DNA of 24,132 nt, taken from the IMG/VR virus record IMGVR_UViG_3300025645_000439, positions 1-24,132 of that record; one strand, written 5' to 3'. Under the pieces are notes generated by a model. The model was not told the DNA's origin, did no database searches, and was given only the letters and a program-made list of their open reading frames with translations. A program made the position numbers and the translations under genes. This stretch comes from a virus. Position 1 is the stretch's first letter; each line of letters starts with the position of its first letter. This document shows, piece after piece, positions 1 to 24,132 of this stretch.

Positions 1-299
1 TGACACATTCAGAATTTCACACCAGGTTGGAGGCTTTAAAATTGTCAATCATAACCGCAACCGACCATTATTTAATTATCAAAGACAAATTTCAGTACTT
101 GAAAAAAGAGGAAAAACAAAATTTAAACGCGTGGTTCAATCATTCGGAAAAGGTTGTTTTTGAATATAAAATGTCCAAACCGGACGAATACATCGGTATT
201 TTGACAGATTGTTTGCACGAACAAATGGACGAAGTTGTCAAGGCAATCGAGGGGTTGAAATTAAAGGCATTGCGAGAACAACAAGATAATGGACAATAA
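1..299 (+). CDS. Hypothetical small protein, start at or just before window edge
   Basis: The frame is open from base 3 and ends at the TAA at 297-299. Bases 1-2 are TG followed in frame by ACA, so the start codon is very probably an NTG whose first base lies just outside the window. That would give about 98 residues beginning (M)THSEFHTRLEALKLS. A TTG at 27 is an alternative start but is less attractive. The product is charged, probably helical and soluble, with no membrane segment or recognised motif. Its 3' end overlaps the next gene by 11 bp, which implies co-translation with the putative small terminase. I do not recognise the family. By position it belongs to the early or packaging cluster. 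Confidence 0.7.
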   Translation, partial: THSEFHTRLEALKLSIITATDHYLIIKDKFQYLKKEEKQNLNAWFNHSEKVVFEYKMSKPDEYIGILTDCLHEQMDEVVKAIEGLKLKALREQQDNGQ

Positions 300-762
300 A
301 AAAGGGTACATTGAACCGGTTAAGTTTGACGCATTTTTCACAATGTTTGAACGCGTATTGGCTGAAAACCAAACGATTGAAACAAAGGACGGGAAACGGC
401 AAATTCCAAACAACAACGCGATAATTTTTACCGATATGGAATTGGTGGAGGAAACCAACGACCGATTGCCGAAAAACCAACGAATCACAAAACGCACATT
501 CGAGGGTTGGAAAAAGGCATTCAACGACGAAACACTATCGCCCGAAATTATGGAACGTTTTTTTCGGGTTTATAAAACCGCAATACGTAAATCAAAGGAA
601 AAATTATTCAATGCGTTGGTAATTGACCATAACGGTTGGCAACGGTTCGCCTGGATAATGGAACGCAAGTTTTCGGAAACGTGGGGCAAAAAGGAAATCG
701 CGGAGGAGGAAAAACCACAACAAATTCAAATCGTTAAAAACTATCAAAAAAAAATAGAATGA
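289..762 (+). CDS. Probable terminase small subunit / DNA-packaging protein
   Basis: 157 residues. A central segment (about residues 60-80) reads like a helix-turn-helix (RLPKNQRITKRTFEGWKKAF). The C-terminal part carries WQRFAWIMERKFSETWGKK, which resembles the W-x-x-x-A-W-x-x-E-R-K/R-F segment seen in many phage small terminase and DNA-packaging proteins. A small subunit would recognise the packaging site and load the large terminase. The large terminase gene lies about 1.9 kb downstream rather than directly adjacent, which is unusual but not unknown. The ATG lies inside the previous gene, and the TGA overlaps the next ATG (ATGA at 759-762). The assignment rests on motif resemblance and position. 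A phage DNA-binding regulator is the main alternative. Confidence 0.55.
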   Translation: MDNKKGYIEPVKFDAFFTMFERVLAENQTIETKDGKRQIPNNNAIIFTDMELVEETNDRLPKNQRITKRTFEGWKKAFNDETLSPEIMERFFRVYKTAIRKSKEKLFNALVIDHNGWQRFAWIMERKFSETWGKKEIAEEEKPQQIQIVKNYQKKIE

Positions 763-941
763 AAAATATAACATTAGTATTAATACCGGTTTTAATATTG
801 GGCGTTTTTGTCAGTATTCAGAAACCACAACAACAAGTCATTCACAAACAAATTGAATGTCCGGTTGATACATTACAATACGAATACAATTGTAAATTGC
901 AAAATTATTCTTTACTTTGGAGCAAAAAAAATATATTATGA
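759..941 (+). CDS. Small membrane-anchored protein, unknown function
   Basis: 60 residues. The N-terminus is MKN followed by a continuous hydrophobic stretch (residues 4-20, ITLVLIPVLILGVFVSI), then a polar, Gln-rich segment with two cysteines (C34 and C45). This looks like a single N-terminal membrane anchor with a short tail outside the membrane. There is no lipobox, because the first Cys is too far from the hydrophobic core. It is translationally coupled on both sides by ATGA overlaps (759-762 and 938-941). A spanin or holin accessory role cannot be excluded, but nothing specific supports it. Confidence 0.6.
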   Translation: MKNITLVLIPVLILGVFVSIQKPQQQVIHKQIECPVDTLQYEYNCKLQNYSLLWSKKNIL

Positions 942-1351
942 AAAATCAATGTAATTGTGTGACCGTTGCGTCAATGAAAGTATGCGACGCAATATGCAAC
1001 AATGAAAATAATTCAAAAGACCGTGCGTTCACCCCGGATTGGTTAGCAATCAAAAGCAAATTCGACAATTCGGAATGGTGTGTTGACGTTGAAATTTTGG
1101 AGGACAACGACGACGTTTCGGTTGTCCTGGAATGGTTGGAGCGTTGCCAAATATCAAAGGAATATATTATAGAGGTTTTTGAGCGCGTAAATGAAACCAA
1201 CGTTGAACCGATTTATTCAAATGATTGCATAATCGAACTAATTGAAAACGAGGTTGCAAAACAGAAAATAAACGAATCAAAAGCAGTGCAAAAATTAGGA
1301 ATCAATTTTGAAAATTACTATTTTTACATAAATAATCGAACAAATGAATAA
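938..1351 (+). CDS. Hypothetical protein with Cys-rich N-terminus
   Basis: 137 residues from the ATG at 938, which forms an ATGA overlap with the preceding stop. An in-frame TTG at 917 would extend it by seven residues, but the overlap architecture used throughout the window favours 938. The first 30 residues contain five cysteines (C5, C7, C17, C21 and the local MKVCDAIC motif), followed by an acidic, Trp-containing central part (EWCVDVEILEDNDD) and a helical C-terminus. It could bind a metal through the N-terminal cysteines, but the spacing does not match a finger that I recognise. It overlaps the next gene by 8 bp. Confidence 0.65.
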   Translation: MKNQCNCVTVASMKVCDAICNNENNSKDRAFTPDWLAIKSKFDNSEWCVDVEILEDNDDVSVVLEWLERCQISKEYIIEVFERVNETNVEPIYSNDCIIELIENEVAKQKINESKAVQKLGINFENYYFYINNRTNE

Positions 1352-1529
1352 ACCATTATCAAAACAAGATGTTGAACGTATGGAACCGGGCGTTCTTTAC
1401 AAAACGGTTGGAGCGAACCGGAAACAACGACGGGAATTTGTGAAATTCCAAACGTCAAACGACAAAATTGTTGTCCAAACAATCAAAATAAAAGGAGCAA
1501 AAAACAAAATAATCAAACATAATAAATAA
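1344..1529 (+). CDS. Small basic hypothetical protein
   Basis: 61 residues and strongly basic, ending in a lysine-rich tail (IKIKGAKNKIIKHNK). The central segment (ANRKQRREFVKF) is also basic, so nucleic-acid contact is plausible. I recognise no family. The start lies inside the previous gene, and the stop is 4 bp before the SSB-like gene, so it belongs to the same transcription unit. Confidence 0.6.
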   Translation: MNKPLSKQDVERMEPGVLYKTVGANRKQRREFVKFQTSNDKIVVQTIKIKGAKNKIIKHNK

Positions 1530-1533
1530 ATAT

Positions 1534-1896
1534 ATGGAATTTGAATTGACCGGTACAATTACCGAAATTAAACAAGTGCAAAAAGGGGTTGCAAAAGGGA
1601 CCGGGAACGAATGGCAAAAAATTGAATTTGTCATTGACACCAACGCGGAATATGACAACATATTTTGTTTTGAAATTTTCAAAGCGGACAAAGTGGAACA
1701 ATTCACGAAATACAACAAAGTCGGTGATGTTGTAAAGGTTGCATTCAATATTAAGTGCAACGCCTGGAATGGAAAACATTTCACATCGTTGTCAGCGTGG
1801 AAAGTGGACAACCGATTGGAGGGAATAACCAACGAACCGACACCGCAACCACAACCCGCCGGAATTGAGGACGACACCGACGAAATGCCGTTTTGA
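1534..1896 (+). CDS. SSB-like OB-fold protein (DUF3127 type)
   Basis: 120 residues. Residues 1-95 have the strand pattern of the DUF3127 family of Bacteroidota (start MEFELTGTITEI, later KVAFNIKCNAWNGKHFTSLSAWKV), predicted as an OB-fold single-strand DNA-binding domain. A proline/glutamine-rich linker (PTPQPQPAG) leads to an acidic C-terminus EDDTDEMPF. This closely resembles the acidic Asp/Glu-x-Pro-Phe tip with which bacterial SSB recruits repair and replication proteins. It therefore probably coats phage single-stranded DNA and recruits partners during replication or recombination, and RusA is encoded 0.4 kb downstream. The stop overlaps the next ATG (TGATG, 1894-1898). Confidence 0.75.
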   Translation: MEFELTGTITEIKQVQKGVAKGTGNEWQKIEFVIDTNAEYDNIFCFEIFKADKVEQFTKYNKVGDVVKVAFNIKCNAWNGKHFTSLSAWKVDNRLEGITNEPTPQPQPAGIEDDTDEMPF

Positions 1897-2066
1897 TGAG
1901 TATTGAAACAAAATTGTTGCCTTGTGAATTATGCCACACGGCAACGCCGGAAACGGTATTAAATGAAAACGCTAGGTATTCAACAACGTCATTTCAAAAA
2001 TGTTGCGAATCTTGTTATGACAAACGCCAAACAATTATTGACAATGAAATTGACGGACGAGAATAA
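1896..2066 (+). CDS. 56-aa zinc-ribbon-like mini protein
   Basis: The ATG at 1896 overlaps the stop of the SSB-like gene (TGATG) and opens a 56-residue frame ending with TAA at 2064-2066. It contains P-C-E-L-C-H at residues 9-14 and K-C-C-E-S-C-Y at residues 35-41: two Cys-x-x-Cys pairs about 25 residues apart, the layout of a four-cysteine zinc ribbon. The 3' end overlaps the next gene by 23 bp. The coupled start and paired CxxC motifs argue that it is a real gene despite its size. Its function is unknown; DNA binding or an adaptor role is possible. Confidence 0.6.
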   Translation: MSIETKLLPCELCHTATPETVLNENARYSTTSFQKCCESCYDKRQTIIDNEIDGRE

Positions 2067-2265: not shown

Positions 2266-2275
2266 TTACACACAA

Positions 2276-2307: not shown

Positions 2308-2314
2308 ATAAAAT

Positions 2315-2635
2315 ATGAAAGTAGAAATTAAACCCTTTTCAGTCAATAACGCGTGGCGGGGCAAACGATACCGAACCGACGCATATATCAATTGGGCGGA
2401 ACAATTAGGTTGGATATTGCCAAACAACGTTCAAACGTTCCCAAAAATGGAATTGAACGTTGTTTTTGGGTTTTCGTCGGGGTCGGCGGACATTGACAAC
2501 CCGTTGAAACCATTTATTGACGTTTTGCAACGCCGTTATTCGTTCAATGACAAACAAATCAAACGGTTGGTTGTTGATGTTGTTTCGGTCAAAAAAGGGG
2601 AGGAATTTATAGATTTTAAATTGAATGAATTATAA
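2315..2635 (+). CDS. rusA: RusA-like Holliday junction resolvase
   Basis: 106 residues, the usual size for the RusA family of phage crossover-junction endodeoxyribonucleases. The N-terminus has the SVNNAWRGKRYRT-x-x-Y-x-x-W pattern. The catalytic signature is D59-I-D61-N62 with K65, D69 and D79, matching the family arrangement of acidic residues plus a lysine (DxDN-x2-K ... D). The enzyme would act as a dimer, cutting four-way junctions symmetrically to resolve replication or recombination intermediates and to debranch DNA before packaging. That fits its place directly before the large terminase, with which it overlaps by 11 bp. All expected acidic residues are present. Confidence 0.85.
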   Translation: MKVEIKPFSVNNAWRGKRYRTDAYINWAEQLGWILPNNVQTFPKMELNVVFGFSSGSADIDNPLKPFIDVLQRRYSFNDKQIKRLVVDVVSVKKGEEFIDFKLNEL

Positions 2636-4025
2636 AAAAATCGAATTATCAATTGAGCAAACCGACGCGTTCGACACGTTAACCCAAACCAATGGGGTTT
2701 CCCGGTTGTTGTATGGAGGTCAAGCCGGGGGCGGAAAATCTTTCTTAATTTGTTTGTGGCAAATACACCAACGGTTGAACTATCCGGGAACGCGTGGGTA
2801 CATTGGACGAACGGTTTTAAAACGTTTGAAAGAATCCGTTTTGGTCACGTTTTTTGACGTGGCAAACAACTTGGGGGTTGCATTCACTTATAACGACAAC
2901 AAATCACACATTGATTTCCCGAACGGCTCGCGAATCGTTTTGTTGGATTGCGAATATAAACCGTCCGACCCAAATTTGGATTCGCTCGGTTCGGTTGAAT
3001 TTACGGACGGAGCCATTGAGGAGGGCGTCCAGGTGAACAAAAGAGTTGCCGACATATTATTGACCCGGACACGTTACAAACACCACGAATTTGGATTGGA
3101 AAAGAAACAATTAATCACGTGCAACCCGTCCGACGGTTGGGTCAAAGACGAAATTATAATTCCGCATTTCGAGGGGTTGTTGTTACCTAAAAACAAATTC
3201 ATTTCGGCGTCATTGGACACCAACCCGGACAAAGAATTTGTAAAATCGTATAAACAAACGTTGGAGGAATTAGACGACGAATTTGACCGGTCAAGATTGT
3301 TGCACGGTGATTGGTTCAGCCAACCAAAAACCGGGGGTGAATTTTACAAACGATTCGAGGAAAAAAACAATGTTTCAAATATTGCGTACAACCCGGAATT
3401 GCCGTTGCACTTAACGTTTGATTTTAACGTCAACCCTTATATGACTTTATTAGTTCACCAATTGGACGGGAAACACTTAAAACAAATCAACGAAATATGT
3501 TTGGAAACACCACGGAACACAACCGCCGGAGTTTGTAAGGAATTCATTTACCAATATGGGGAACACCAAAACGGGGTTTTTGTTTATGGTGACCCCGCCG
3601 GGAAACACGAGGACACCAGGACGGAAAAGGGACACAACGATTATACAATCATTGAAACGGAATTAGCGAAATTTTCCCCAACGTTTCGGGTCAGCAAATC
3701 CGCCCCGTCAATTGTTATGCGTGGAAATTTTATCAATCGTTTGTTTGAAAATAGAATCGAGGGTTGCACATTCACAATTGACCGGGAATGCTCAAAAACG
3801 GTTTCCGATTATACGCAAGTAAAGGAAGATATGGACGGTAAAAAGAAAAAAACAAAGGTTAAAAATCCACGTACCGGGGTGACCTATGAAAAATACGGTC
3901 ATTGTTCCGACGCGAATGACTATTTGATTTGTTCGGTATTTTCGGACGAATACAACGCTTTTATTAGAGGAAACCGCGAGGTTGTACGTACTTTGTCAAC
4001 AAACTCAAAAACATTAAGGTTTTAA
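2625..4025 (+). CDS. terL: Terminase large subunit (packaging ATPase/nuclease)
   Basis: 466 residues. The N-terminal ATPase domain has Walker A G-G-Q-A-G-G-G-K-S at residues 31-39. The Walker B-like acidic region around 121-133 (SVEFTDGAIEE) is not a textbook hhhhDE. A coupling-type motif ITCNP is at 164-168. The C-terminal RNase H-like nuclease domain shows the three acidic clusters: D266 in LTFDFNVNP, D323 in VYGDPAG, and D429/D432 in HCSDANDY. The protein would drive DNA into the prohead through the portal and cut concatemers. It overlaps rusA upstream, and the next gene starts 1 bp after its stop. The ATG at 2625 directly precedes the core fold, and the length is ordinary for the family. 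Confidence 0.93.
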   Translation: MNYKKIELSIEQTDAFDTLTQTNGVSRLLYGGQAGGGKSFLICLWQIHQRLNYPGTRGYIGRTVLKRLKESVLVTFFDVANNLGVAFTYNDNKSHIDFPNGSRIVLLDCEYKPSDPNLDSLGSVEFTDGAIEEGVQVNKRVADILLTRTRYKHHEFGLEKKQLITCNPSDGWVKDEIIIPHFEGLLLPKNKFISASLDTNPDKEFVKSYKQTLEELDDEFDRSRLLHGDWFSQPKTGGEFYKRFEEKNNVSNIAYNPELPLHLTFDFNVNPYMTLLVHQLDGKHLKQINEICLETPRNTTAGVCKEFIYQYGEHQNGVFVYGDPAGKHEDTRTEKGHNDYTIIETELAKFSPTFRVSKSAPSIVMRGNFINRLFENRIEGCTFTIDRECSKTVSDYTQVKEDMDGKKKKTKVKNPRTGVTYEKYGHCSDANDYLICSVFSDEYNAFIRGNREVVRTLSTNSKTLRF

Positions 4026-4026
4026 A

Positions 4027-4578
4027 ATGAATTACTTAATCAAACCGGATTATCTAAAACACATTCAAAGCGATAATTTAACCGTAATAACAGACGGAAA
4101 CGACGCGTATTTGGACGAATGCGAGGCAATCGCAATTGAGGAAATCAAATCATATATTTCAAGCCGTTACGATGTGGAAACGATATTTGCCGACATTCCG
4201 GAATTTGACGTTTTATTGTCTTATGCAATAGGTAATTTCGTCACTTATTTAGACGTAATTTATAAATGTAATGTTGCAACAACACCGGGAAACCTACCAA
4301 CCGACACCAATTTTTGGTCAGCAACGGACGAACGGTCGGCAAAAATGGTTTCAATTGTCGTTGATTTGTCATTGTATCATTTGCATTCGAGAATTAACCC
4401 GCGAAATATTCCGGATTTACGAGGAATTAGACGTGACGACGCGGTCAGATGGTTAACAGAAACACGCGATTTGAAAAACAACCCGTCATTTTTGCCGGTA
4501 TTGGACGCCAACGCGGACGGTGTGGACGGTTTGAAAATCAAATGGGGGTCAAATGATATTACAACTAATAGTTATTAA
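4027..4578 (+). CDS. Mu gp36-like protein (DUF1320 type), head-tail connection
   Basis: 183 residues. The N-terminal half has the pattern of phage Mu gp36-like (DUF1320) proteins: an acidic helix with AIAIEEIKSYISSRYDVETIF near residues 35-55, then helical segments typical of small connector proteins (LYHLHSRINPRNIP, RRDDAVRWL). Such proteins are thought to form part of the head-tail interface. In Mu, gp36 lies downstream of the capsid gene; here it sits between the terminase and portal genes, a rearrangement of the standard order. It starts 1 bp after the terminase stop and ends 3 bp before the portal ATG. Confidence 0.65.
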   Translation: MNYLIKPDYLKHIQSDNLTVITDGNDAYLDECEAIAIEEIKSYISSRYDVETIFADIPEFDVLLSYAIGNFVTYLDVIYKCNVATTPGNLPTDTNFWSATDERSAKMVSIVVDLSLYHLHSRINPRNIPDLRGIRRDDAVRWLTETRDLKNNPSFLPVLDANADGVDGLKIKWGSNDITTNSY

Positions 4579-4581
4579 AAA

Positions 4582-5817
4582 ATGGAGTTATTCGGATTTG
4601 AAATCGGACGTGCAAAAACATTGGACAATGTGGTTGTGAAACAAAAAGAAGTGGAACGCATAATTGAGCGAATCACCCGTTCACAATTGCAAAGGTCAAA
4701 ACAAGACATTGGAATTTGGCGGAGCGCAATAAATCAAAGCGAATCCGCAATGAATCCAAAACGAACCGAATTAATAAAGACATTCAAGGACGTTGTTTTG
4801 GACGCGCATTTGTCGTCGTTAATTCAAACCCGGATTTTAAAAGTTGTCGGACACGATTTTTCGGTTGTTGATTCAGACGGCGAAATTGACATTGAAAAAA
4901 CAAAATTATTTCGGGACGAATGGTTTGAAAAGTTTGTCAATATATCAATGGAATCAATTTTTTGGGGTTACTCATTAATTCAATTCGGGGCGTTGGTTGA
5001 CGACAAATTCGAATCGGTTGAATCCGTACCACGGGAATATATTATTCCGGAAAAAAGGGGCGTAATGAAAAGAATGTCCGATTCAAATAATTTAATATAT
5101 TTTGACGAAAAGCCATTTAAACAATGGTTGATTTTTTTAGATTCCAACGGTTTGGGTTTACTCAATAAAGCAACACCGCACGCGATTTGGAAGAAAAACG
5201 CGGTTGGAAGTTGGGCTGAATACGTCGAAAAATACGGTCAACCAACAAGGGTTGGAAAAACGCATTCGAGCAACAAAGCGAACCGGGAAAACCTGGAATC
5301 AATGTTGGCAAATATGGGGTCGAATGGTTGGGCGGTTTTTGACAACGACGACGAATTGCAATTTTTGGAAACGAGCAAAACCGACGCACACTCTGTTTTT
5401 AACGAAATGGTTTCATTGTGTAATTCTGAAATGTCAAAATTGATTGTTGGTCAAACGATGACATCGGACAACGGGTCGTCAAGGTCGCAAGCAACGGTTC
5501 ACGAAAACATTTTGAACGATTATTTCAAACACGATTTAATGTACATTTCAAACATTGTCAACAATAAATTGATTCCTTTAATGGTTGACAAAGGCGTTGC
5601 GCTGGAGGGGTTTACATTCGAGTGGGACACGTCCGAAAAAATGTCAATAAGCCAACAATTCGCCATTGATAACGAACTATTAAAAACCTACACAATACAA
5701 CCGGAATATTTTATTGAAAAATACGGTGTTCCCGTTGAAACAAAACAAAACGATATAAACGACCCAACCGCAACAAATGTGTATTTCAAAAACTCAATTT
5801 CAAAGTATTACGAATAA
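4582..5817 (+). CDS. Portal protein, Mu gp29-like (DUF935)
   Basis: 411 residues. Signature segments of the DUF935 portal family are present: the N-terminal RTELIKTFKDVVLDAHL region, FWGYSLIQFG, then the highly characteristic W-x-E-Y-V-E-K-Y-G-Q-P-T-R-V-G-K followed by LANMGSNGWAVFDNDDELQFLE, and VGQTMTSD with a nearby RSQATVH. Portals form the dodecameric ring at one vertex through which terminase pumps DNA and to which the neck binds. The family is usually somewhat longer, so this is a compact member. It starts 3 bp after the gp36-like gene, and its 3' end overlaps the MuF-like gene by 41 bp in another frame. Confidence 0.92.
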   Translation: MELFGFEIGRAKTLDNVVVKQKEVERIIERITRSQLQRSKQDIGIWRSAINQSESAMNPKRTELIKTFKDVVLDAHLSSLIQTRILKVVGHDFSVVDSDGEIDIEKTKLFRDEWFEKFVNISMESIFWGYSLIQFGALVDDKFESVESVPREYIIPEKRGVMKRMSDSNNLIYFDEKPFKQWLIFLDSNGLGLLNKATPHAIWKKNAVGSWAEYVEKYGQPTRVGKTHSSNKANRENLESMLANMGSNGWAVFDNDDELQFLETSKTDAHSVFNEMVSLCNSEMSKLIVGQTMTSDNGSSRSQATVHENILNDYFKHDLMYISNIVNNKLIPLMVDKGVALEGFTFEWDTSEKMSISQQFAIDNELLKTYTIQPEYFIEKYGVPVETKQNDINDPTATNVYFKNSISKYYE

Positions 5818-7483
5818 GAGAACGGACGAAATCGTTTCATTGTATTATTCCGGATTTAGCAAAAATTCATTTGCCGGGTTGGTCAATGAAGTTGTCCCGG
5901 ATTTTGACGAATTGTTCAGCGACGACGAAATTGAAACGTTGTCGGCGTCCATTTTTAACGGGGTCACGACATTGGATAATATGCCAACCGGCGTTTATAT
6001 GAAAATCGGTTCAATCCTTGAAAACGCGGTGTTTACGGGGTTCAATGGAACACCTTTAGACTTTGCGATTGAATCACCGGCGTTTGATATGGTAGAAAGT
6101 TTACGTCAGTCAACGTGGGTGTTTTCCGGAGCGAAAACAAGTTCGCAAATATTAGAAATTCAGTCAAAAATATTTGACGAAAAAGGATTTAAACGTCCTT
6201 ATTCAGAATTTAAAAAGGACGCAAAACAAATCTTTGAAACACACAACAAACATTGGTTGCAAGCCGAACACCAAACCGCAATCGCACAAAGTCGTTCGGC
6301 GTCGCAATGGTTGGAAATTGTGGACGGTGGGTTGGAGCTGCTACAATATCAAACGATTGGGGACGGTGTGGTGCGTCCGGAACACGTTAAGTTGGACAAT
6401 ATAGTCAAACCGGTTGATTCGCCATTTTGGGACACGTTTTTCCCCCCGAATGGTTGGCGTTGCCGTTGCGATGTTTTAGAATTGGAAACCGGCGACGCGG
6501 AAATCACGGAAACAAACGACAAAGAATTGACGGAGGAAACGCACCCGTTGTTTCGAATGAATCCAGGAAAAGACAAAATTGTTTTCAGTCCGGAACACCC
6601 CTATTTTGAATTAAAAGGGGTTAACGAACGTTTCAAAGTTTTGGCAAAAAAGAATTTCAACCTACCGATTCCGCCCCCAATGGTCCGACAAATACCGGTC
6701 AAGGTTGCACCGCCGAAAATAGATATTCCAAAAACAAAAAAACAATTAAGCATCGAAAAGGAAACAAAAGAGTTGTTTGAAAAAGTTGTTCCGGATAATT
6801 ATGTTTCCGATTGGGGCGCGGAAATGCCGAATGAGTTTTGGAAGTTATTAAAAAACAAACCAAAATTAAAAATATTACCAACCAACAAGGCATATTGTGA
6901 CAACGATGGAATGTTGGTCGCATTAGGAAAGCCGGAAATTTCACCACGTTGGAACACACCATATTTGAAGAAAAAAATCGTTGCACACGAATTTGGTCAC
7001 GCAATCCACGACCAAACAAAAGAAATTGCAATTTCTTTTAATTCTGAAATGAAATTGGTCGGACGTGGAAAACCGGAATTTGAATCTTTTTTTGAAAAAT
7101 CACAAAAACAAATCGGATTTGGTGGTCGGAAATTATCGGATAAAAAATTGCAGTCGGATTTGGGGCGACAAATAAATGAAATTTATAAGAAAAATAAAAT
7201 GGCGTTTTATGACGATTTGTTCGAAAATAAATATAGTCCAAACGAAATAAAGGAAATGATGTCGGCAACATTTGACCACATCGGCGGTTTGACAAATGGA
7301 AAGTTTGGTGGTGGTCACGATATTTCGTATTATAGAGCGAATAGTGGTGTTGGTGGTCGTTGGGAAGTTTGGGCGCATAGTTCGGAAAATTATTTCGTTG
7401 GAAATGAATTGTTCAAATATGAATTTCCGGAGTTGTACGAATTATCAATCGAATATATTGAAAATTTTATCAAAAGACAATAA
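5777..7483 (+). CDS. MuF-like minor head protein fused to a zinc-metallopeptidase-like domain
   Basis: 568 residues from the ATG at 5777, inside the portal gene; no other good start precedes the conserved region. Residues about 60-290 are the Mu gpF / SPP1 gp7 head morphogenesis domain, with the signature D196-G-V-V-R-P-E-H203 and FWDTFFPPNGWRCRC ending at C229/C231. A proline-rich linker (297-320) follows. Residues 325-568 form a separate domain with the zincin motif H404-E405-F406-G407-H408 inside VAHEFGHAIHD, then FDHIGGLTNGKFGGGHD (D500-H514) and WEVWAHSSENYF (E530 or E537 could be the third zinc ligand). The MuF part would sit inside or near the portal. The extra domain could process capsid proteins or be carried into the host as an effector. 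C-terminal enzymatic fusions to MuF are a known theme of phage polymorphic toxins. The gene is followed after 4 bp by a 58-aa gene. Confidence 0.88.
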   Translation: MCISKTQFQSITNKRTDEIVSLYYSGFSKNSFAGLVNEVVPDFDELFSDDEIETLSASIFNGVTTLDNMPTGVYMKIGSILENAVFTGFNGTPLDFAIESPAFDMVESLRQSTWVFSGAKTSSQILEIQSKIFDEKGFKRPYSEFKKDAKQIFETHNKHWLQAEHQTAIAQSRSASQWLEIVDGGLELLQYQTIGDGVVRPEHVKLDNIVKPVDSPFWDTFFPPNGWRCRCDVLELETGDAEITETNDKELTEETHPLFRMNPGKDKIVFSPEHPYFELKGVNERFKVLAKKNFNLPIPPPMVRQIPVKVAPPKIDIPKTKKQLSIEKETKELFEKVVPDNYVSDWGAEMPNEFWKLLKNKPKLKILPTNKAYCDNDGMLVALGKPEISPRWNTPYLKKKIVAHEFGHAIHDQTKEIAISFNSEMKLVGRGKPEFESFFEKSQKQIGFGGRKLSDKKLQSDLGRQINEIYKKNKMAFYDDLFENKYSPNEIKEMMSATFDHIGGLTNGKFGGGHDISYYRANSGVGGRWEVWAHSSENYFVGNELFKYEFPELYELSIEYIENFIKRQ

Positions 7484-7667: not shown

Positions 7668-8099
7668 ATGGCAAAACGAACGGATTTCAATTTCAAAGAA
7701 GTATTGAGGCGAATAACCAACGACCCAACATTGCCCCGGCGGTTGGGGTCAATCGCGGTGAACCATTTTAAACAATCATTCGTTGCCGGCGGTTTTACGG
7801 ACAAAAATTTTGTTGCCTGGAAAAGGAGGGAAAACGACAAAACACCAAACCGTGCAACATTGGTTAAAAGTGGCGATTTAAAACGCTCAATTAAAATTCG
7901 CCGTGCAACTTTCAAATCGGTAATTGTTGGAACGTCCGGCATTCCGTACGCTGAAATACACAACGAGGGGTTGCCGGGAATAGCATTTGGAAAACATCGG
8001 TTCGTTATGCCTAAACGTCAATTCATTGGTGATTCGGAGGTTTTGGAAAAGAAATTGAAAAAACGAATCTTGCAACACGTCAAACAATCATTTAGATAA
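7668..8099 (+). CDS. Virion morphogenesis protein, Mu gpG-like
   Basis: 143 residues. The C-terminal half shows the typical motif series of the phage virion morphogenesis family (Mu gpG / P2 gpS tail completion): LVKSGDLKRSI, VGTSGIPYAEIHNEG, then HRFVMPKRQFIG. The N-terminal part is basic and helical (LPRRLGSIAVNHFKQSF). These proteins act in head-tail joining or tail completion. The order MuF, gpG is conserved in Mu-like phages and is broken here only by the 58-aa gene. It starts 3 bp after that gene's stop and is followed 8 bp later by the tail-terminator-like gene. Confidence 0.85.
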   Translation: MAKRTDFNFKEVLRRITNDPTLPRRLGSIAVNHFKQSFVAGGFTDKNFVAWKRRENDKTPNRATLVKSGDLKRSIKIRRATFKSVIVGTSGIPYAEIHNEGLPGIAFGKHRFVMPKRQFIGDSEVLEKKLKKRILQHVKQSFR

Positions 8100-8899: not shown

Positions 8900-9988
8900 A
8901 TGAAAGATTTATATTTATACGACGCAATTACAACGGATTCCGCAACAAAAATTCACAACGAAATATTGGGTGCTGAAATGGACGGCGAAAACGAAATTAC
9001 AATCAATATTAATTCGGTTGGCGGTTCAATTTTTGCCGGTTGGTCAATCATTTCGACAATGTTGTCAAAACAAAATGCGGGAATGATAATAAACACCCAC
9101 GTTTCCGGAATTGGCGGTTCAATGGGGGGTGTTGTTGCAATGTTTGGGAACAATGTATCAATGAATGATTTTGCGTTGCTTATGATACACAATCCGTCGT
9201 TTGGAGGTCAACAACCAACCAATCCGGCGGAACGAATTGTCATTGATAAAATAAAAAATTCATTAATCACTATATTTTCCGGACGTCGTGGAATGGATAA
9301 AAACACAATCGCAAACGTAATGTCAGCGGAAACGTGGTTTGATTCGTCCGACGCAATGGAATTTGGATTGGTTGACAATATAGTCAATACCGGAACGGCA
9401 ATACAAATCGAGAATAAAACATTTGATTATATTTATAATATGGTCAATTCTTTAATAGTAAAAACAAAACCAAAAACAGAAATGAAAGAAATTACAAACG
9501 TATTAGGCATTGCCGAAACCGACAACGAATCGGTTGTTGTTGAGGCAATCGAAAATAAAATTGGAGCGTTCGAAACAACGATTGTTGAAAAGGACGGACA
9601 AATTGTTGAATTAACAAATTCAATAACGGAAATGACCGAAAAATTAACAAACAACGACGCATTAATTGTTGAGTTAAAAACAAAAATTGCTGAAATTGTA
9701 GTGAATGAAGCAATTGCAAACGGTAAAATCGACGCAACATCAAAAAATGTTTGGGTTGAAATGGCGGTTAACGATATGGAAAAAACCGTTGGGTTGATTG
9801 CGTCGTTTAAATCGCAACCGGCAAACATTATCAACCAATTAGTTGTTGATAAAACAGAGGAAAAGAAAATGACATTTAAGGAAATGAGTAAAAACGACCC
9901 CAAAGGATTGCAAAATCTTATGAACAATGATTGGGAAAAATACTCAAATCTTTACAAAGAACAATACGGTGTTGCACCGGCGAAATAA
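8900..9988 (+). CDS. ClpP-like head maturation protease with C-terminal scaffold domain
   Basis: 362 residues. Residues 1-185 are a ClpP/crotonase-like serine protease: NSVGGSIFAGWSI (oxyanion loop region), the nucleophile S74 in GIGGSMGG, H97 in LLMIHNPS, and the usual ETWFDSSDAMEFGLVD segment near 145-160. Residues about 195-362 form a charged helical region with coiled-coil character (ETTIVEKDGQIVELTNSITEM and onward), ending in LQNLMNNDWEKYSNLYKEQYGV. This is the layout of phage protease-scaffold fusions. The protein would template the procapsid and then degrade the scaffold. An in-frame ATG at 9482 (M195), preceded by an A-rich leader, could produce the scaffold alone, as Mu gene Z does inside gene I. 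Confidence 0.88.
   Translation: MKDLYLYDAITTDSATKIHNEILGAEMDGENEITININSVGGSIFAGWSIISTMLSKQNAGMIINTHVSGIGGSMGGVVAMFGNNVSMNDFALLMIHNPSFGGQQPTNPAERIVIDKIKNSLITIFSGRRGMDKNTIANVMSAETWFDSSDAMEFGLVDNIVNTGTAIQIENKTFDYIYNMVNSLIVKTKPKTEMKEITNVLGIAETDNESVVVEAIENKIGAFETTIVEKDGQIVELTNSITEMTEKLTNNDALIVELKTKIAEIVVNEAIANGKIDATSKNVWVEMAVNDMEKTVGLIASFKSQPANIINQLVVDKTEEKKMTFKEMSKNDPKGLQNLMNNDWEKYSNLYKEQYGVAPAK
9482..9988 (+). CDS. Possible nested scaffold protein (internal start in protease gene)
   Basis: An in-frame ATG at 9482 gives a 168-residue product comprising only the helical scaffold part of the head protease gene. It is preceded by AAAACAAAACCAAAAACAGA, an A-rich leader like those before most starts in the window. 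Nested scaffold genes are established in Mu (Z in I) and lambda (Nu3 in C). Another in-frame ATG at 9440 is possible but comes before the linker. There is no direct proof of internal initiation. Confidence 0.35.
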   Translation: MKEITNVLGIAETDNESVVVEAIENKIGAFETTIVEKDGQIVELTNSITEMTEKLTNNDALIVELKTKIAEIVVNEAIANGKIDATSKNVWVEMAVNDMEKTVGLIASFKSQPANIINQLVVDKTEEKKMTFKEMSKNDPKGLQNLMNNDWEKYSNLYKEQYGVAPAK

Positions 9989-11023: not shown

Positions 11024-11251
11024 ATGGAATATACAAAAGACGAACTACAAAAAAAAGCCGAAAATTTGTTCACAACTTTAAAATGTGAAAAATTATTCGC
11101 AACATCGGACGGCAATTTCTTTGAGGAAAAAAACAAACAATTTGCAATTGGTCATTCACATAATGGTCATAAATTATTTGAACTTGAAAAATTGACAATC
11201 GAAACACCGGAGGAAAAACCAAAGGAACAAAATTTTAAAAAACGTAAATAA
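11024..11251 (+). CDS. Small hypothetical protein between capsid and sheath
   Basis: 75 residues. The middle reads KLFATSDGNFFEEKNKQFAIGHSHNGHK, a segment that I associate with small proteins encoded after the capsid in Bacteroidota phages, but I know no function for it. The C-terminus is a Pro/Glu/Lys-rich tail (ETPEEKPKEQNFKKRK). By position it corresponds to the small genes between the capsid and the sheath in Mu (the gp35-gp38 region). The start follows the capsid terminator by 14 bp, and the stop overlaps the sheath ATG (TAATG). Confidence 0.65.
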   Translation: MEYTKDELQKKAENLFTTLKCEKLFATSDGNFFEEKNKQFAIGHSHNGHKLFELEKLTIETPEEKPKEQNFKKRK

Positions 11252-13440: not shown

Positions 13441-15087
13441 ATGGCGGACAATACGGTCGAATACAAATTATTATTGAACAACAAACAATTCATTTCCGAA
13501 TTGTCGGAGGCGGTCAACAAAACCAAAGGATTGAAAAAAAACGTTGACCAAACGAAATCGTCATTTTCCGGTATTGGGTCATTGATTGGAGGGTTGGCAA
13601 TTGGCGGTTCAATCGCAATGATTGGAAAATCAATCTTTGATTTGGGTGTATCAATGGAACAAACCCGTGTTTCATTTGCCACGTTTACCGGTTCAGCCGA
13701 AAAGGGAAACCAGGTTTTAAAAGAATTAAACGAATTTGCCAACGTAACACCGTTTGACAACGCGCAAGTGATTGAGGCGTCGAAAACATTGTTGTCGTTT
13801 GGTGTCACCGCTGAGGAATTACAACCAACTTTAAAATTAATCGGTGATATTTCAGCCGGGACCGGAAAAGATTTGTCGGAAATGGGGCGAATTTTCGGTA
13901 AAATTAAAGGCAACGGGCGATTAATGGGCGAGGAATTAGGGCAATTAATTGACGGAGGGTTCAATCCGTTAAATGAAATTTCCAAACGTACCGGATTAAG
14001 CCAACAAGAATTGCGCAAGGAAATGGAAAAGGGCAATTTATCCTTTGAAATGGTTACGCAAGCATTCAAGGACGCCACATCGGAGGGCGGACAATTTGCT
14101 AATATGATGGACAAACAATCCAAAACGGTTGGCGGTCGAATTTCAACAATGGTTGGAAAATTTCAATCATTAGGAATCGGAATTGGCGAGGCGGTTTTGC
14201 CTAAATTGGGCGAAATTTTGGACGGTTTTATGAATGTATTTGAATGGACAATGACCAATTGGAGCAAAATAAAAAACGTTTTTATGCCATTGTTACCAAT
14301 TTTCAATATGTTAATTGATGATTTAAACCAAATGCGGGTTCAACTCGGGTTGATTGGAAGTGAAACAAAACAATTGGAGTCAATTTTTAATTTTTTAGGC
14401 AATACGTTAAAAATTTTAGCACCTATATTGAAATTCACAACCGGTTTGGCGTTATTTCCAATCCGTGCATTGGTTTATTTATTGACCGGTGCAATTAAAT
14501 TAATAAACGGTTTTACCGGCGCATTGATTGGCGGTTTCACGGCAATATGGAACGCCGGGAAATCAATGTTCGGAAATTTAGGCGATTTGATAATTGGCGT
14601 TTTAACACTTGACAAAGATAAGATAATGTCGGCGGTGAATGGTTTTACTACAATAGGAAAACAAATCGGTGTTGGGTTTTCAAATGGAGCGAAAGAGGGT
14701 GCGACCGGTTTGTTGGGAAAAGATTATTTTGCAAGCGACGGAATCGCGGGAACAACCGGAAAACGTGGGAAAGCTACCGGAACAACCGGACGTTTTGTTG
14801 AACGTAAAGACCGAACAACCGGCGGTTTAATGGATTTAGCAACCGACCCAACAAAACCAACAAAGCCAGGAGCAACAACCAAACCGGATTCAAAAATTGG
14901 GGGCGGTTTGTCGGAGGTCAAAGGAACAAAAGCGGTCAATTTAACAATCAATATTGGTTCATTAGTAGAACGATTTGACGTTACAACGGAAACAATTACC
15001 GGGGGCGCAAATTCAGTAAAAGACGAAATTGTCCGTGCATTATTGGGGGCGGTCAACGATGTCAACACAATTTCATTATCACAATAA
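13441..15087 (+). CDS. Tail tape measure protein
   Basis: 548 residues. Residues about 60-215 contain the tape-measure N-terminal domain pattern (SMEQTRVSFATFTGSAEKG, NEFANVTPFDNAQVIEASKTLLSFGV, GDISAGTGKDLSEMGRIFGKIKGNGRLMGEEL, LIDGGFNPL). Hydrophobic, glycine-rich stretches occur near 43-65 and 320-370 (ILAPILKFTTGLALFPIRALVYLLTGAIKLI), as expected for a protein that is ejected and may form a channel in the membrane. A Thr/Gly/Lys-rich linker (about 430-490) precedes a C-terminal strand/helix segment. At about 0.15 nm per residue the tail would be roughly 80 nm long, short for a myovirus. It starts 2 bp after the end of the frameshift extension. Confidence 0.92.
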   Translation: MADNTVEYKLLLNNKQFISELSEAVNKTKGLKKNVDQTKSSFSGIGSLIGGLAIGGSIAMIGKSIFDLGVSMEQTRVSFATFTGSAEKGNQVLKELNEFANVTPFDNAQVIEASKTLLSFGVTAEELQPTLKLIGDISAGTGKDLSEMGRIFGKIKGNGRLMGEELGQLIDGGFNPLNEISKRTGLSQQELRKEMEKGNLSFEMVTQAFKDATSEGGQFANMMDKQSKTVGGRISTMVGKFQSLGIGIGEAVLPKLGEILDGFMNVFEWTMTNWSKIKNVFMPLLPIFNMLIDDLNQMRVQLGLIGSETKQLESIFNFLGNTLKILAPILKFTTGLALFPIRALVYLLTGAIKLINGFTGALIGGFTAIWNAGKSMFGNLGDLIIGVLTLDKDKIMSAVNGFTTIGKQIGVGFSNGAKEGATGLLGKDYFASDGIAGTTGKRGKATGTTGRFVERKDRTTGGLMDLATDPTKPTKPGATTKPDSKIGGGLSEVKGTKAVNLTINIGSLVERFDVTTETITGGANSVKDEIVRALLGAVNDVNTISLSQ

Positions 15088-15093: not shown

Positions 15094-15705
15094 ATGGCTC
15101 AATCAAAATACAACCTATCGAATACAACGCCGAATTTTCAGAAACCCCGACCAATTTTTTTACCTATAAACGGAAAAGAAAACGACGATTGGGACGAAGT
15201 GAACGTTGGACAATTAGGAAACCCGGTTTATTCAAATTTAACATTTGACGCGAAAACGTATATCTACGGTGACAGAGAGGAAACTTTTTTGGAATTAGTC
15301 ATAAATTCGGTAATTATAAGCGTTTCCCAATCAAAAAACATCGTTAAAACGTCAATTCAAGGTCGTTCGGGGACGGTCAAAGAATACATTTGTGACGGCG
15401 ATTTTTCAATTTCTGTTGAGGGTCAAATAATAGACCCGGACGCGTTGGTTTATCCGGAAAAAAGGGTCAAAGATTTAATAAAATTGCTTAATATACCAAT
15501 GGAATTGGCGGTGACATCGGAATTTTTATTGCGTTTCGGCATTTTTAACGTTGTGGTAGATTCTTATTCATTCCCACAACAAAAGGGGTCGCGCAACGTT
15601 CAACCGTTCACGTTGTCGTTGTCAAGTGAAAAACCGTTGGAATTAGATTTGAAACCGTACGATTCGAGGCGTTCGTCAATCATTTTACCAAAATTTAGGG
15701 CGTGA
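15094..15705 (+). CDS. Tail/baseplate protein following tape measure (DUF6046-like)
   Basis: 203 residues. The middle has the recognisable run LELVINSVIISVSQSKNIVKTSIQGRSGTVKEYICDGDFSISVEGQI followed by YPEKRVKDLIKLL and a C-terminal FNVVVDSYSFPQQKGSRNVQPFTLSLSSE. I associate this with the DUF6046 proteins of Bacteroidota myophages. By position (after the tape measure and before the hub) it corresponds to Mu gpN, a baseplate hub or adaptor protein that closes the tube. The evidence is the pattern plus synteny. It is followed by an overlapping GTG start (GTGA at 15702-15705). Confidence 0.6.
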   Translation: MAQSKYNLSNTTPNFQKPRPIFLPINGKENDDWDEVNVGQLGNPVYSNLTFDAKTYIYGDREETFLELVINSVIISVSQSKNIVKTSIQGRSGTVKEYICDGDFSISVEGQIIDPDALVYPEKRVKDLIKLLNIPMELAVTSEFLLRFGIFNVVVDSYSFPQQKGSRNVQPFTLSLSSEKPLELDLKPYDSRRSSIILPKFRA

Positions 15706-16673
15706 AAAGGCTTAATTGTAGAATAGAGCGGTGGGACGCCAACGGCGATTTTATCGAGTGGGATTTTATCACGGAAATTGAAATCAATTCGAGTTGGGCG
15801 GAATTTACGGAAACGGCGAAATTGACATTTCCGAATAAAATTCAGTACAAAAATAAACCAATTGTAAATGGTGACGAATCAATTTTTAAGCGTGGCGATA
15901 ATATAGAAATATTTTTGGGTTACGACGACACAATCATTTCGGAATTTTCCGGATATATTACAAAAATAATTCCAGGCGTTCCAATTGTTTTGGAGTGCGA
16001 AAACGAGGCGTTTTTATTGAAACAAAAAACGATTAAAAAATTGTCGTTCAAATCGGTAACATTAAAGGAATTATTAACCGCCATTATTCCCGACGGAATA
16101 CCGGTTGTATCACCGGACGCAAAATTGGGTGCGTTTAGAATCACGAACGCAACGTCAATGCAAGTACTTGACGAACTTAAAAAAACATACGGATTCCCGG
16201 CATTTTTCAGAAACGGCACATTGTACGTTGGACAAACATACGTTGGAGCATTAAGGGAAACACACGTTGTTGAATTTGAAAACGATGTGATTTCGTCTGA
16301 TTTGGAATATAAAAGAAAAGAAGATTTGAAAATCAAAGTCAAAGCAATTTCGATGTTGGAGGACAACACAAAAATTGAAATTGAAACGGGCGACGACGAC
16401 GGCGAATTGCGAACGTTGACATTTTACAACATAACATCTGAAACGGAATTGGAAAAAATAGCATTGGCGGAATTAGACCGGTTAAAATTTGACGGTTATG
16501 CGGGGTCATTCGAAATGTTCGGTCAACCTACAATTCAGCACCAACACGTTGTTGAAATTATTGACGGAAAATTCCCGGAGCGTTCCGGCGAATACTTTGT
16601 CAAATCGCACGGTGTGACATTTGGACAATCCGGTTTTAGACGAAACATTGAATTAGGGACAAAAAGTTTATGA
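15702..16673 (+). CDS. Baseplate hub protein (gpD / Mu gpP-like)
   Basis: 323 residues with a GTG start at 15702, chosen because of the 4-bp overlap with the previous stop and because the first strand begins at once (KRLNCRIERWDANGDF). The N-terminus has the immunoglobulin-like hub pattern (INSSWAEFTETAKLTFPNKI ... FKRGDNIEIFLGYDD ... FSGYITKI). The middle has VLDELKKTYGFPAFFRNGTLYVG, and the C-terminus ends RSGEYFVKSHGVTFGQSGFRRNIELG. This is the layout of the gp27/gpD/Mu gpP hub proteins, which form a trimer under the tube and carry the spike encoded next. It overlaps the spike gene through ATGA. Confidence 0.75.
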   Translation: MKRLNCRIERWDANGDFIEWDFITEIEINSSWAEFTETAKLTFPNKIQYKNKPIVNGDESIFKRGDNIEIFLGYDDTIISEFSGYITKIIPGVPIVLECENEAFLLKQKTIKKLSFKSVTLKELLTAIIPDGIPVVSPDAKLGAFRITNATSMQVLDELKKTYGFPAFFRNGTLYVGQTYVGALRETHVVEFENDVISSDLEYKRKEDLKIKVKAISMLEDNTKIEIETGDDDGELRTLTFYNITSETELEKIALAELDRLKFDGYAGSFEMFGQPTIQHQHVVEIIDGKFPERSGEYFVKSHGVTFGQSGFRRNIELGTKSL

Positions 16674-20642: not shown

Positions 20643-20643
20643 A

Positions 20644-22092
20644 ATGAAAAAATTTTTTAATACATTAGGGTTTTGGTTTAACAAAGTGACCATTGCAAAC
20701 AACCTAACATTCGCGGATTTAGGCAACCCTTTATTCACTTTAAACGGTACATTTTTAGTCAATCTAAAAACCGCCATTGCGGATTCATTCCGATTTCGTG
20801 ACAACACAAAAGGGTTTGACATTATAAGCATTGACACCGATTTAAACATTGTTGAATTGGGCGAAAATTACGACGGTCAAGGGTTTGCCGGAAAACAACG
20901 AATATTTGTAAACCAAACAAACGTTGCGTCCACATTGGGCGGGACAATTGATTCAACAAAGGAATATTTTATTGACGGAATAGTTGATTGCACCGGAGTA
21001 TCAATTGAAATTCCGGCGACCGGTATTTATTTAAAAGGGTACAATTTCGACACATCACAATTGGTTTGTTCCGATTCAAGTTATACAATGTTTACATCGC
21101 CGGTTGGGGGTTCGGGCAACGTTTTAATGGCGGAATTATCAATTGAAGTTTCCGGGACGTCCTCAAAAGTATTTGACATTTTCAGCGACACCGGATTTGA
21201 AGCGGTCGAAATAAATATTGTCAATTTTAACAATTGCACATCGTTGGGAACAATCACAAATTACCGTCAAGGGTTGGAAACCGGAACGGGTCGTTTTGGA
21301 GGAAAACCGGAATTAACATTGGCGGGTGTTTGGGTTGGAGGGTACACAATAAGAACGTCAATTGTTAGGTCGTTAACCGCCGGAACTTATAATTTATTCA
21401 AAGCGGGAACGGGTTTTTTGATGTCGTCAAGGTTCAAAACAGATATTAATTGCGATTTGCCGGCGTCCGCGTCATTTGTTGATTTTGCACCGGCTAATTT
21501 TGTGAATCCGTCAACGTTACAATTTGACGGTGTTTTATTAACACGTGCGGGTGTTTATAATTCCACGGATTCATTATTGACACCAAACATTTCATATTCA
21601 GATTTGGCGTCAAATTGGACGAATTGCCAGGGGTTGCAAAATACATTTGTCGGTGGTTTTATTGCAATTGGTACAGAATTAGAAACCACAATCAACACGG
21701 TTGACGTACCGGAAACGGTTGTTGCGACGGCGTGGACAACCTCCGATTTGGTACATTTTGACAACCCGTCGGGCGGTCAATTGCGACACCTTGGAAACAA
21801 CCCCCGGGAATATAGATTGGTGTATGATTTGCACGTCAAAGGAACGGCGAGCAAAGTCGTAACGATAAGAGTTAAAAAATACGATAGTTCATTAACTACA
21901 TTTTCAACGGTATTTGACCAACAACGAGTTGTAAACAATTTGGTTGGGTCGGACGACAAAGCATTTTTTAATATTGATTTAACAACAACATTAGACCAAA
22001 ATGATTACATTTATTTAGAAATAATTAACAACACCGACGATTCAAATTTAACCGTCGAAAATTCTTCATTTTTTAGATTAGAACAAAGATAA
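20644..22092 (+). CDS. Tail spike-like structural protein
   Basis: 482 residues. After MKKFFNTLGFWFNKVTIANNLT the sequence is almost wholly strand-rich with short repeats typical of a right-handed beta-helix (VNQTNVASTLGGTIDSTKEYFIDGIVDCTGVSIEIPATGIYLKG, and later TFVGGFIAIG). The C-terminal 130 residues (from about 345) look like a separate jelly-roll tip (REYRLVYDLHVKGTASKVVTIRVKKYD ... NIDLTTTLDQNDYIYLEIINNTD). That is the plan of phage tail spikes and receptor-binding fibres. I see no certain catalytic residues, so depolymerase activity is not claimed. It starts 1 bp after the LamG gene and overlaps the next gene (TAATG). Confidence 0.6.
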   Translation: MKKFFNTLGFWFNKVTIANNLTFADLGNPLFTLNGTFLVNLKTAIADSFRFRDNTKGFDIISIDTDLNIVELGENYDGQGFAGKQRIFVNQTNVASTLGGTIDSTKEYFIDGIVDCTGVSIEIPATGIYLKGYNFDTSQLVCSDSSYTMFTSPVGGSGNVLMAELSIEVSGTSSKVFDIFSDTGFEAVEINIVNFNNCTSLGTITNYRQGLETGTGRFGGKPELTLAGVWVGGYTIRTSIVRSLTAGTYNLFKAGTGFLMSSRFKTDINCDLPASASFVDFAPANFVNPSTLQFDGVLLTRAGVYNSTDSLLTPNISYSDLASNWTNCQGLQNTFVGGFIAIGTELETTINTVDVPETVVATAWTTSDLVHFDNPSGGQLRHLGNNPREYRLVYDLHVKGTASKVVTIRVKKYDSSLTTFSTVFDQQRVVNNLVGSDDKAFFNIDLTTTLDQNDYIYLEIINNTDDSNLTVENSSFFRLEQR

Positions 22093-22952
22093 TGGCACGA
22101 ACAATAAATGAAATTTACAACGTAATTGTTGCGGAAAAGGACAACCAAACGGAATTGTCAGCATTACAACCAGTCGGTGATTCGGCGTCGGGTTTGACAA
22201 CGGATTTGTCCACGGGTTCAAAGGTTGCAATATGGAGGTTGTGGGCGTGGGTTACATCGGTAGCCATTTGGACATTGGAAAAATTATACGACGAATTTGT
22301 CGCTGAAATCAACGCGAAAATTGAATTGACCAATTACGGAACCAATTTATGGTGGATTGATAGAATGAGAAAATACCAATTCGGGGACAATTTGGTAATT
22401 GTTGAAACGGCGGGCGAAAAGTCATTGACGTATTCAGTAATTAACGAAAATTTGCAAATCATTGATTTCGTTGCAATAAGTGATTCCGGCGACGGTGGGT
22501 CAATTATTAAGGTTGCAAAGGACGACGGGTTCGGATTGCCGACACCATTGAACACGGCGGAATTATTAGGGGCGATTGCTTACGTTGATACACTGCAACC
22601 GGCGGGTGCAAAATTAGGGGTCATTTCCAGGGCGTCCGATTTGGTAAAATACACAATTGATTTATATTATAATCCTTTGTTGGATTTAGCAACAATAACG
22701 GCGAATGTTGAATTGGCGGTTGTAAATTACCACAAAAATTTGGAGTTCAACGGGGCGGTGATTTTATCGAAATTAGTTGACGAAATCCAATCGGTTGACG
22801 GTGTTTTTGATTTGGTTGTGAATAGTGCGTCCGGCAAACCGTCCGGCGGAACTTATTCAGTTTTCAATAGAAAATATAGTACGTCCGCGGGTTTTGTAAC
22901 GGTTGACCCGGCAAACCCTTTGTCCGCAACAATCACATATTTGCCAAAATAA
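22092..22952 (+). CDS. Baseplate wedge protein, J-like
   Basis: 286 residues. The N-terminus MARTINEIYNVIVAEKDNQTEL ... SKVAIWRLWAWVTSVAIWTLEKLYDEFVAEI is a pattern I know from proteins at the Mu gp47/gpJ position of Bacteroidota myophages. The second half has LQPAGAKLGVISRASDLVKYTIDLYY and a C-terminal repeat-like strand region (NLEFNGAVILSKLVDEIQSVDGVFDLVV). This suits the wedge protein that links hub, sheath and fibres. It is shorter than Mu J, and it lies after three adhesion genes instead of directly after the W-like gene. It is followed 1 bp later by the I-like gene. Confidence 0.6.
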   Translation: MARTINEIYNVIVAEKDNQTELSALQPVGDSASGLTTDLSTGSKVAIWRLWAWVTSVAIWTLEKLYDEFVAEINAKIELTNYGTNLWWIDRMRKYQFGDNLVIVETAGEKSLTYSVINENLQIIDFVAISDSGDGGSIIKVAKDDGFGLPTPLNTAELLGAIAYVDTLQPAGAKLGVISRASDLVKYTIDLYYNPLLDLATITANVELAVVNYHKNLEFNGAVILSKLVDEIQSVDGVFDLVVNSASGKPSGGTYSVFNRKYSTSAGFVTVDPANPLSATITYLPK

Positions 22953-22953
22953 A

Positions 22954-23448
22954 ATGGAAAAGTACATTGTAAATTTTAATTTATTGGTCATTAGGTTGAC
23001 ACCGTCATTTTTACGAATGGAGCCGTTGACCGCGTGGTTTGTTGCATTGTTTAAACCTTTGTCAGATTTAAACTATACATTAGTTTCTTTTATTTCGGCG
23101 GTTCGTTTAACGGTTTCATATAATTCGCAACGATTGATTTTTGAAACGTATTTGAACGATTTATTCGACCCGGTTGACCGTGGAATTGTAATTGAAAACA
23201 CGTTTAAATTTGTTGAACGTTTATTTATATTTTATAAAATTGAATTACAAACCGAAAATCAACAATATAATTATTTAGATTCGGAGGTACAACCGCCTAA
23301 ATTCATATATTCGCATTTAGAATTGGGGTTGAATTATGATTTTATTGTAAAAGTTCCGGTTTTATTAGTTTACAACGCTGAAAAAATGAATGAAATTATT
23401 TTAAACACAAAATTAGCGGGGAAACGTTACGAAATACAAACATATTAA
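22954..23448 (+). CDS. Baseplate-associated protein at gpI / Mu gp48 position
   Basis: 164 residues from the ATG at 22954, the first start after the J-like stop. An earlier in-frame ATG at 22903 lies inside the J-like gene and is less likely. The N-terminus is rich in hydrophobic and aromatic residues (LVIRLTPSFLRMEPLTAWFVALFKPLSDLNY), followed by RLTVSYNSQRLIFETYLNDLFDPVDRGIVIEN. That last segment (sequence input, L-N-D-x-F-D-P) recurs in proteins following gpJ in Bacteroidota myophages. It probably completes the baseplate and connects fibres. The family function is not established. Confidence 0.6.
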   Translation: MEKYIVNFNLLVIRLTPSFLRMEPLTAWFVALFKPLSDLNYTLVSFISAVRLTVSYNSQRLIFETYLNDLFDPVDRGIVIENTFKFVERLFIFYKIELQTENQQYNYLDSEVQPPKFIYSHLELGLNYDFIVKVPVLLVYNAEKMNEIILNTKLAGKRYEIQTY

Positions 23449-23458
23449 ATAAATAATT

Positions 23459-24132
23459 ATGCAAAAAATTGATTTTAAGATTGGAGGACACCCGCAATTG
23501 AATGACGATTTGGTTCACATTCAAAACGGTGTTTACAATGATATTAAGGCAATCACGGATTCATTATTCAGAAACCGCACCGGTTCAACACCATTTCGTT
23601 TGTTGGACGGTTTTGTTGTAAGCGAACCAACACCGGGGAATTTTACGTGGACGTCTGGTTTCTGTTACATTGACGGAATCGTTTATGAAATACCGGAGGA
23701 AACGACACCACAAACGATTGATTTTAATTTATACGGTGTTTATGCAACTACAACTTATGACTTAACAATCGACCCGGTTTTGTACGAAAACGGTTCGCCG
23801 GAATTTGTCCACGAAAAAAGAATCATTGAATTTAAGGAAATAGCAACAAATGTTGGTTCACTTGGAACGATGACAGAATTACAACGATACGAGGGTTTAG
23901 ACGTATTATTGCAAAATTTATTGAGTGATTACGGAAAAGAGGTTTTAAAAGACTTTATTGTCAACGACGGTTGGGTCAATTTAACGATTTCAACCGGAAT
24001 TTCAACAATCGTTGTACAACCGCAAGTCCGTTTGTCGGAGGGGTTAGTCGAATTTAGAGGTCGTTTTGTGATTACGTCGGACACGTGGTCGTTTTTATTG
24101 CCAGGAACGTATCAACCGCCATTGGGCGTAAA
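23459..24132 (+). CDS. Tail fibre / baseplate-distal structural protein, partial at 3' end
   Basis: The ATG at 23459, 10 bp after the previous stop, opens a frame that stays open to the window end (224 residues seen). The N-terminus MQKIDFKIGGHPQLNDDLVHIQNGVYNDI is followed by PFRLLDGFVVSEPTPGNFTWTSGFCYIDGIVYEIPEE. This pattern (G-F-x-x-x-x-x-DL-x-x-x-Q, then a strand pair with 'G-x-x-Y-I-D-G-x-x-Y') is common in fibre-attachment proteins after the I-like gene. The later part is strand-rich (SEGLVEFRGRFVITSDTW). It could be the base of a fibre or an upper collar; the missing C-terminus prevents a firmer call. Confidence 0.7.
   Translation, partial: MQKIDFKIGGHPQLNDDLVHIQNGVYNDIKAITDSLFRNRTGSTPFRLLDGFVVSEPTPGNFTWTSGFCYIDGIVYEIPEETTPQTIDFNLYGVYATTTYDLTIDPVLYENGSPEFVHEKRIIEFKEIATNVGSLGTMTELQRYEGLDVLLQNLLSDYGKEVLKDFIVNDGWVNLTISTGISTIVVQPQVRLSEGLVEFRGRFVITSDTWSFLLPGTYQPPLGV

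Follow-up and report, generated by a model that had tools for sequence, protein, structure and literature searches.

Elimination of GATC, CATG and GGCC from a tailed phage genome fragment, consistent with escape from Type II restriction

Rusinov et al. (2018; PMC6286503) described the complete or almost complete elimination of particular sites in roughly one in ten genomes of prokaryotic viruses, a pattern typical where the sites belong to orthodox Type II systems. The window considered here, by which is meant the whole stretch of 24,132 bases that was analyzed, is a single IMG/VR virus record representing an incomplete genome, and it offers a clear new example of this already known strategy. 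It resembles the published cases in being dsDNA phage from which palindromic tetranucleotides have been fully eliminated, but three words, GATC, CATG and GGCC, are gone together in the window, and the hosts of the phages behind the published analysis are known.

The closest named relatives of the window phage are two Winoviridae phages of Flavobacterium, pippi8-1 (MN812205) and FPSV-S1 (MK764442), each of which has matches to 18 of the 24 window proteins tested, in the same order and at 23-45% identity; a megablast search for the nearest named phage by DNA gave no match to the window. Both share with the window its structural gene order and the purging of palindromic tetramers. The purged words differ, however, since pippi8-1 keeps GATC (58 copies) and is devoid of CCGG, as well as of CATG and GGCC (0 each), whereas the window is devoid of GATC and rich in CCGG. 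FPSV-S1 contains no CCGG and only 2 GATC, 3 GGCC and 4 CATG. Unlike the window, neither phage displays a strong depletion of the dinucleotides CT and AG (ratios of 0.78-0.91). Two further observations concern these genomes: GATC is over-represented in pippi8-1 (58 against 15 by a Markov model), where CTAG is absent along with the three other words, and an annotated Dcm-type methylase lies within the structural module of FPSV-S1 (L157:15234-16148), a phage that avoids CCGG, GATC and GGCC.

The window covers the half of a contractile-tail phage genome that carries the terminase and structural genes. Several small proteins come first, followed by a DUF3127 protein, RusA and the terminase large subunit, and thereafter by the Mu gp36-like protein, Mu portal, Mu F, neck, ClpP-type protease, capsid, sheath, tube, tape measure, hub and baseplate proteins, as follows.

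1534..1896, plus strand, DUF3127 protein, function unknown (Pfam PF11325, E 6e-23)
2315..2635, plus strand, RusA-like Holliday-junction endonuclease (Pfam PF05866, E 2.7e-5)
2625..4025, plus strand, terminase large subunit (PHROGs phrog_979, E 1.3e-20; best viral relatives L002, 56% in the best segment)
4027..4578, plus strand, Mu gp36-like protein (Pfam PF07030; 38% identity with pippi8-1)
4582..5817, plus strand, Mu-type portal protein (Pfam PF06074, E 5.6e-79)
5777..7483, plus strand, Mu F-like head morphogenesis protein (Pfam PF04233, E 4.2e-11)
7668..8099, plus strand, tail completion or neck protein (phrog_26)
8900..9988, plus strand, ClpP-type head maturation protease (phrog_2976, E 4.5e-35)
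10040..10960, plus strand, major capsid protein (phrog_267, E 1.6e-26; 44% identity with pippi8-1 and FPSV-S1)
11251..12435, plus strand, contractile tail sheath (phrog_907, E 1.4e-39; 45% identity with pippi8-1)
12457..12870, plus strand, tail tube-like protein (phrog_4579, E 7e-14)
13441..15087, plus strand, tape measure protein (phrog_9959, E 1e-51)
15702..16673, plus strand, baseplate hub protein (phrog_4930, E 1.5e-71)
22092..22952, plus strand, baseplate wedge-like protein (phrog_38413, E 3.3e-43; phrog_6, E 1.5e-5)

The same phage is also represented by IMGVR_UViG_3300006920_000326, a contig that differs from the window at 2 positions over 19.1 kb. It continues for 1815 bases to the right of the window, where it encodes an M15-family peptidase, and this extension also contains zero GATC, CATG and GGCC. 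No methylase was found among the scanned proteins of the window, which represent part of its open reading frames and of the genome; a methyltransferase or another counter-defence may lie elsewhere in the genome, beyond the window.

A reading of the letters alone, here called the sequence-only reading, had claimed that none of the three words occurs anywhere in the 24 kb, and a program count over the 24,132 bases returned 0, 0 and 0. The 80, 80 and 30 occurrences that it had expected of GATC, CATG and GGCC correspond roughly to the independence expectation; a Markov model of maximal order lowers these to 35.3, 40.4 and 32.8, still far from the zero counts. As approximately 22.4 kb of the window are coding, with every gene on the plus strand, codon models provide the proper control, and codon-preserving shuffles had been named beforehand as the test that could refute the claim. 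When synonymous codons were swapped throughout the genes, such that proteins and codon usage were kept (n = 1000), the expectations were 49.5 for GATC, 35.8 for CATG and 19.8 for GGCC, with minima of 34, 24 and 9. A stricter shuffle, in which codons traded places only if their flanking bases were identical so as to fix the dinucleotides at codon junctions (n = 1000), lowered the expectations to 28.5, 27.4 and 15.2 and the minima to 15, 16 and 6; not one of its 1000 replicates reached zero for any of the three words, and the shuffled counts were thus not similarly low. Across four models, 15-50 copies of each word are expected where none is observed, and all three fall under near-complete elimination, defined as an observed/expected ratio below 0.1. 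When 768 palindromes spanning 4-13 bases (tetramers, pentamers with a degenerate center, hexamers with at most one degenerate pair, and interrupted palindromes) were ranked by depletion, GATC, CATG and GGCC took the first three places. Weaker candidates from the same 768 tests, RTCGAY (3 against 15.9 expected), GGNCC (3 against 17.1) and GAATTC (2 against 11.9), are not pressed. Words one substitution away are frequent, with 205 GATT, 175 AATC, 215 AATG, 206 CATT and 134 GGCG, which bears out the earlier claim that near neighbors are not avoided. The under-representation of the three words in the window therefore exceeds what composition and codon usage account for.

This specific absence, together with the purging of other sets of words from relatives, leads us to regard the window, with a probability of roughly 0.88, as part of a tailed dsDNA phage, probably of a Bacteroidota host, that has been purged of sites for host Type II enzymes specific for GATC, CATG and GGCC. 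Such a host would cut incoming unmethylated DNA at these sites, and genomes with fewer of them would better survive each round. Repeated rounds of mostly synonymous substitutions would bring the site count to zero, after which the enzymes would find nothing to cut in the phage DNA. The interpretation of the missing words as an adaptation to restriction had already been put forward from the letters, and it draws support from both the shuffles and the differing palindrome sets of syntenic relatives; that the agents are restriction endonucleases, and that the three specificities act in past or present Bacteroidota hosts, is what we infer from these observations. The purging of three sites at once implies that a single host carried three systems or that more than one host was involved.

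The relatives were surveyed as 62 distinct contigs of at least 8 kb, with CTAG left out of the tally. At least one palindromic tetramer is absent or nearly so in 40 of them, most often GATC (31 contigs), followed by GGCC (20), CCGG (11), CGCG (10), CATG (8) and GCGC (4), with ACGT, AGCT and TCGA each avoided in one. Bacteroides phage Versailles lacks GATC (0/152) and GGCC (0/153) and retains CATG and CCGG, and relatives of the sheath protein at approximately 45% identity come from genomes that are devoid of CCGG instead. Palindrome purging is thus the rule in this phage group, but the set of avoided tetramers varies among related phages and switches between syntenic genomes, and so is not fixed by descent. 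The loss of different sets by syntenic relatives accords with hosts that differ in their restriction enzymes. Within Flavobacterium psychrophilum, two strains are known to differ in their methylation motifs (PMC4571129), and the avoided set is therefore expected to change rapidly.

The host is probably a member of the Bacteroidota, with no closer assignment possible, as both the Winoviridae phages of Flavobacterium and the terminase relatives in cellular genomes point to this phylum. A scan of genome contigs for an exact prophage found only distant terminase relatives, located in Hymenobacter, Chitinophagaceae and other Bacteroidota. When Pfam families were searched for in 296 genomes of the phylum to which a Chitinophagaceae genome belongs, the HaeIII family (PF09556) scored above cut-off in 4 and the DpnII family (PF04556) in 7, while the ICEA family (PF05315), which we take to be NlaIII-like, did so in 1 genome, where the hit covered just a 31-residue end. 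Predicted GGCC and GATC enzymes of the HaeIII and DpnII families thus occur in the presumed host phylum, and the search says little about CATG. None of the 296 genomes combined all three systems, as judged from these three families. The low counts constitute weak counter-evidence because endonucleases of a single specificity span many families. Purged palindromes may be taken as a record of the enzymes a phage has met. The window accordingly predicts GATC-, CATG- and GGCC-specific systems in the host lineage, and purged words of this kind offer a handle for the host assignment of uncultured phages.

Of the other explanations, the one that best survives is a site-specific defence other than Type II restriction, either phosphorothioate-based (Dnd-type) restriction or nicking by methyl-directed repair, and we consider it improbable. 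GATC and GGCC are both known phosphorothioation contexts, but we know of no Dnd-type account of CATG. The lack of GATC in phiX174 has been connected with evasion of mismatch repair (PMC5014478), but this process covers GATC only, and the varied sets avoided by the relatives, which include CCGG, CGCG, GCGC, AGCT and ACGT, resemble the repertoire of Type II enzymes. It is less probable again, and distinctly so, that methylation of the words in a lysogenic or methylating host led to their loss by mutation without selection. GGCC and CCGG-type sites can indeed carry mutable 5-methylcytosine, but the methylating enzymes for GATC and CATG are usually adenine methylases, and adenine methylation is not strongly mutagenic; moreover, residual sites would be expected under such decay rather than an exact zero for all three words. 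Least credible of all is that the zero counts follow from an unusual base, dinucleotide or codon composition, for although the dinucleotide ratios of the window are odd and account for its scarce AGCT, CTAG and TCTC, both kinds of codon shuffle rule out such an artefact for GATC, CATG and GGCC, and the maximal-order Markov model still expects 33-40 of each.

The proposed escape from Type II restriction concerns three words, and other rare tetramers of the window have a different origin. Only 4 of the 256 tetramers are absent, namely GATC, CATG, GGCC and TCTC. TCTC is ordinary in the codon- and dinucleotide-preserving shuffle (0 against 5.3 expected, shuffle minimum 0), its absence being due to the general depletion of CT and AG. 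Similarly, the sequence-only reading had placed AGCT and CTAG beside the avoided words; their scarcity stands (6 and 2 copies), but their membership of the avoided set does not, as 5.6 and 2.8 are expected in the coding sequence with dinucleotides kept, and both words are rare because CT and AG are themselves rare. None of these three words is retained as avoided once dinucleotides are held fixed. At the other extreme, CCGG is abundant: the window has 158 copies, 141 of them in coding sequence, where shuffles that preserve codons and dinucleotides predict 109. Under the same constraints CCWGG is also over-represented (18 against 4.5).

The depletion of CT and AG is the more unusual and least explained feature of the window, and no mechanism for it is offered with confidence. 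On the plus strand, the observed/expected ratio (rho) is 0.22 for CT and 0.40 for AG, compared with 0.86 for TC, 0.89 for GA and 1.76 for CG, and the depletion is uniform along the window. It extends to synonymous choice, such that C ends 3% of the window's fourfold-degenerate codons before T and 13-26% otherwise, except before C (11%), and A ends 10% before G and 30-61% otherwise. Leucine CTN codons make up 50 of 576 in the window, and NCT codons are rare. A search of the literature for comparable depletion in phages yielded only a paper on invertebrate viruses. Large DNA viruses of invertebrates are reported to have CpT ratios of about 0.72 and CpG ratios of about 1.41, a bias tentatively tied to host methylation (PMC4219779). 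The window resembles them in that CT/AG is low, CG high and TC/GA nearly normal, but its values are more extreme, and it belongs to a phage, with no methylating eukaryotic host.

Depletion of comparable strength was found in only three of the 62 relatives, L010 (CT 0.21, AG 0.45), L031 (0.24, 0.45) and L026 (0.42, 0.48). These terminase relatives avoid different palindromes, CCGG in L010 and GATC in L031, with none flagged in L026, which separates the CT/AG depletion from restriction sites. The terminase domain of L024 is 89% identical to that of L026, and L024 is more mildly depleted (0.71, 0.61). In their aligned DNA, CT and AG words of L024 correspond in L026 to TT, AT, CC, CG and GT and to AA, CG, GG and TC, respectively, a comparison that is unpolarized, being made without an outgroup, and in which a milder reverse flow is also present. 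Losses to several products speak against a single mutational process such as deamination of CT to TT; because either base changes, and to several others, this unpolarized comparison looks like selection against the CT/AG word. A signature imposed by the host was likewise rejected. Counts of the pattern CTNNCTNNCTNNCT against the reversed pattern across 395 genomes of the presumed host phylum revealed none resembling the phage; the lowest ratio was 17 to 248 (G106), and the contig sampled from that genome has 62% GC and an ordinary AG ratio of 0.77. It is tentatively suggested, as a possibility we would not yet favor, that the window phage, L010, L031 and L026 are subject to a second, undescribed genome-wide pressure against CT/AG that is independent of the avoided sites and in which either base is replaced by any other. 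If the depletion does reflect selection, it would indicate a defence or constraint that senses a two-base word, which would be new, and it merits separate study. Among the CT/AG-depleted relatives, L010 encodes a protein (L010:7888-8622) that bears a likeness, judged by eye, to ATP pyrophosphatases of the PAPS-reductase/DndC type, including an SGGKTSA motif.
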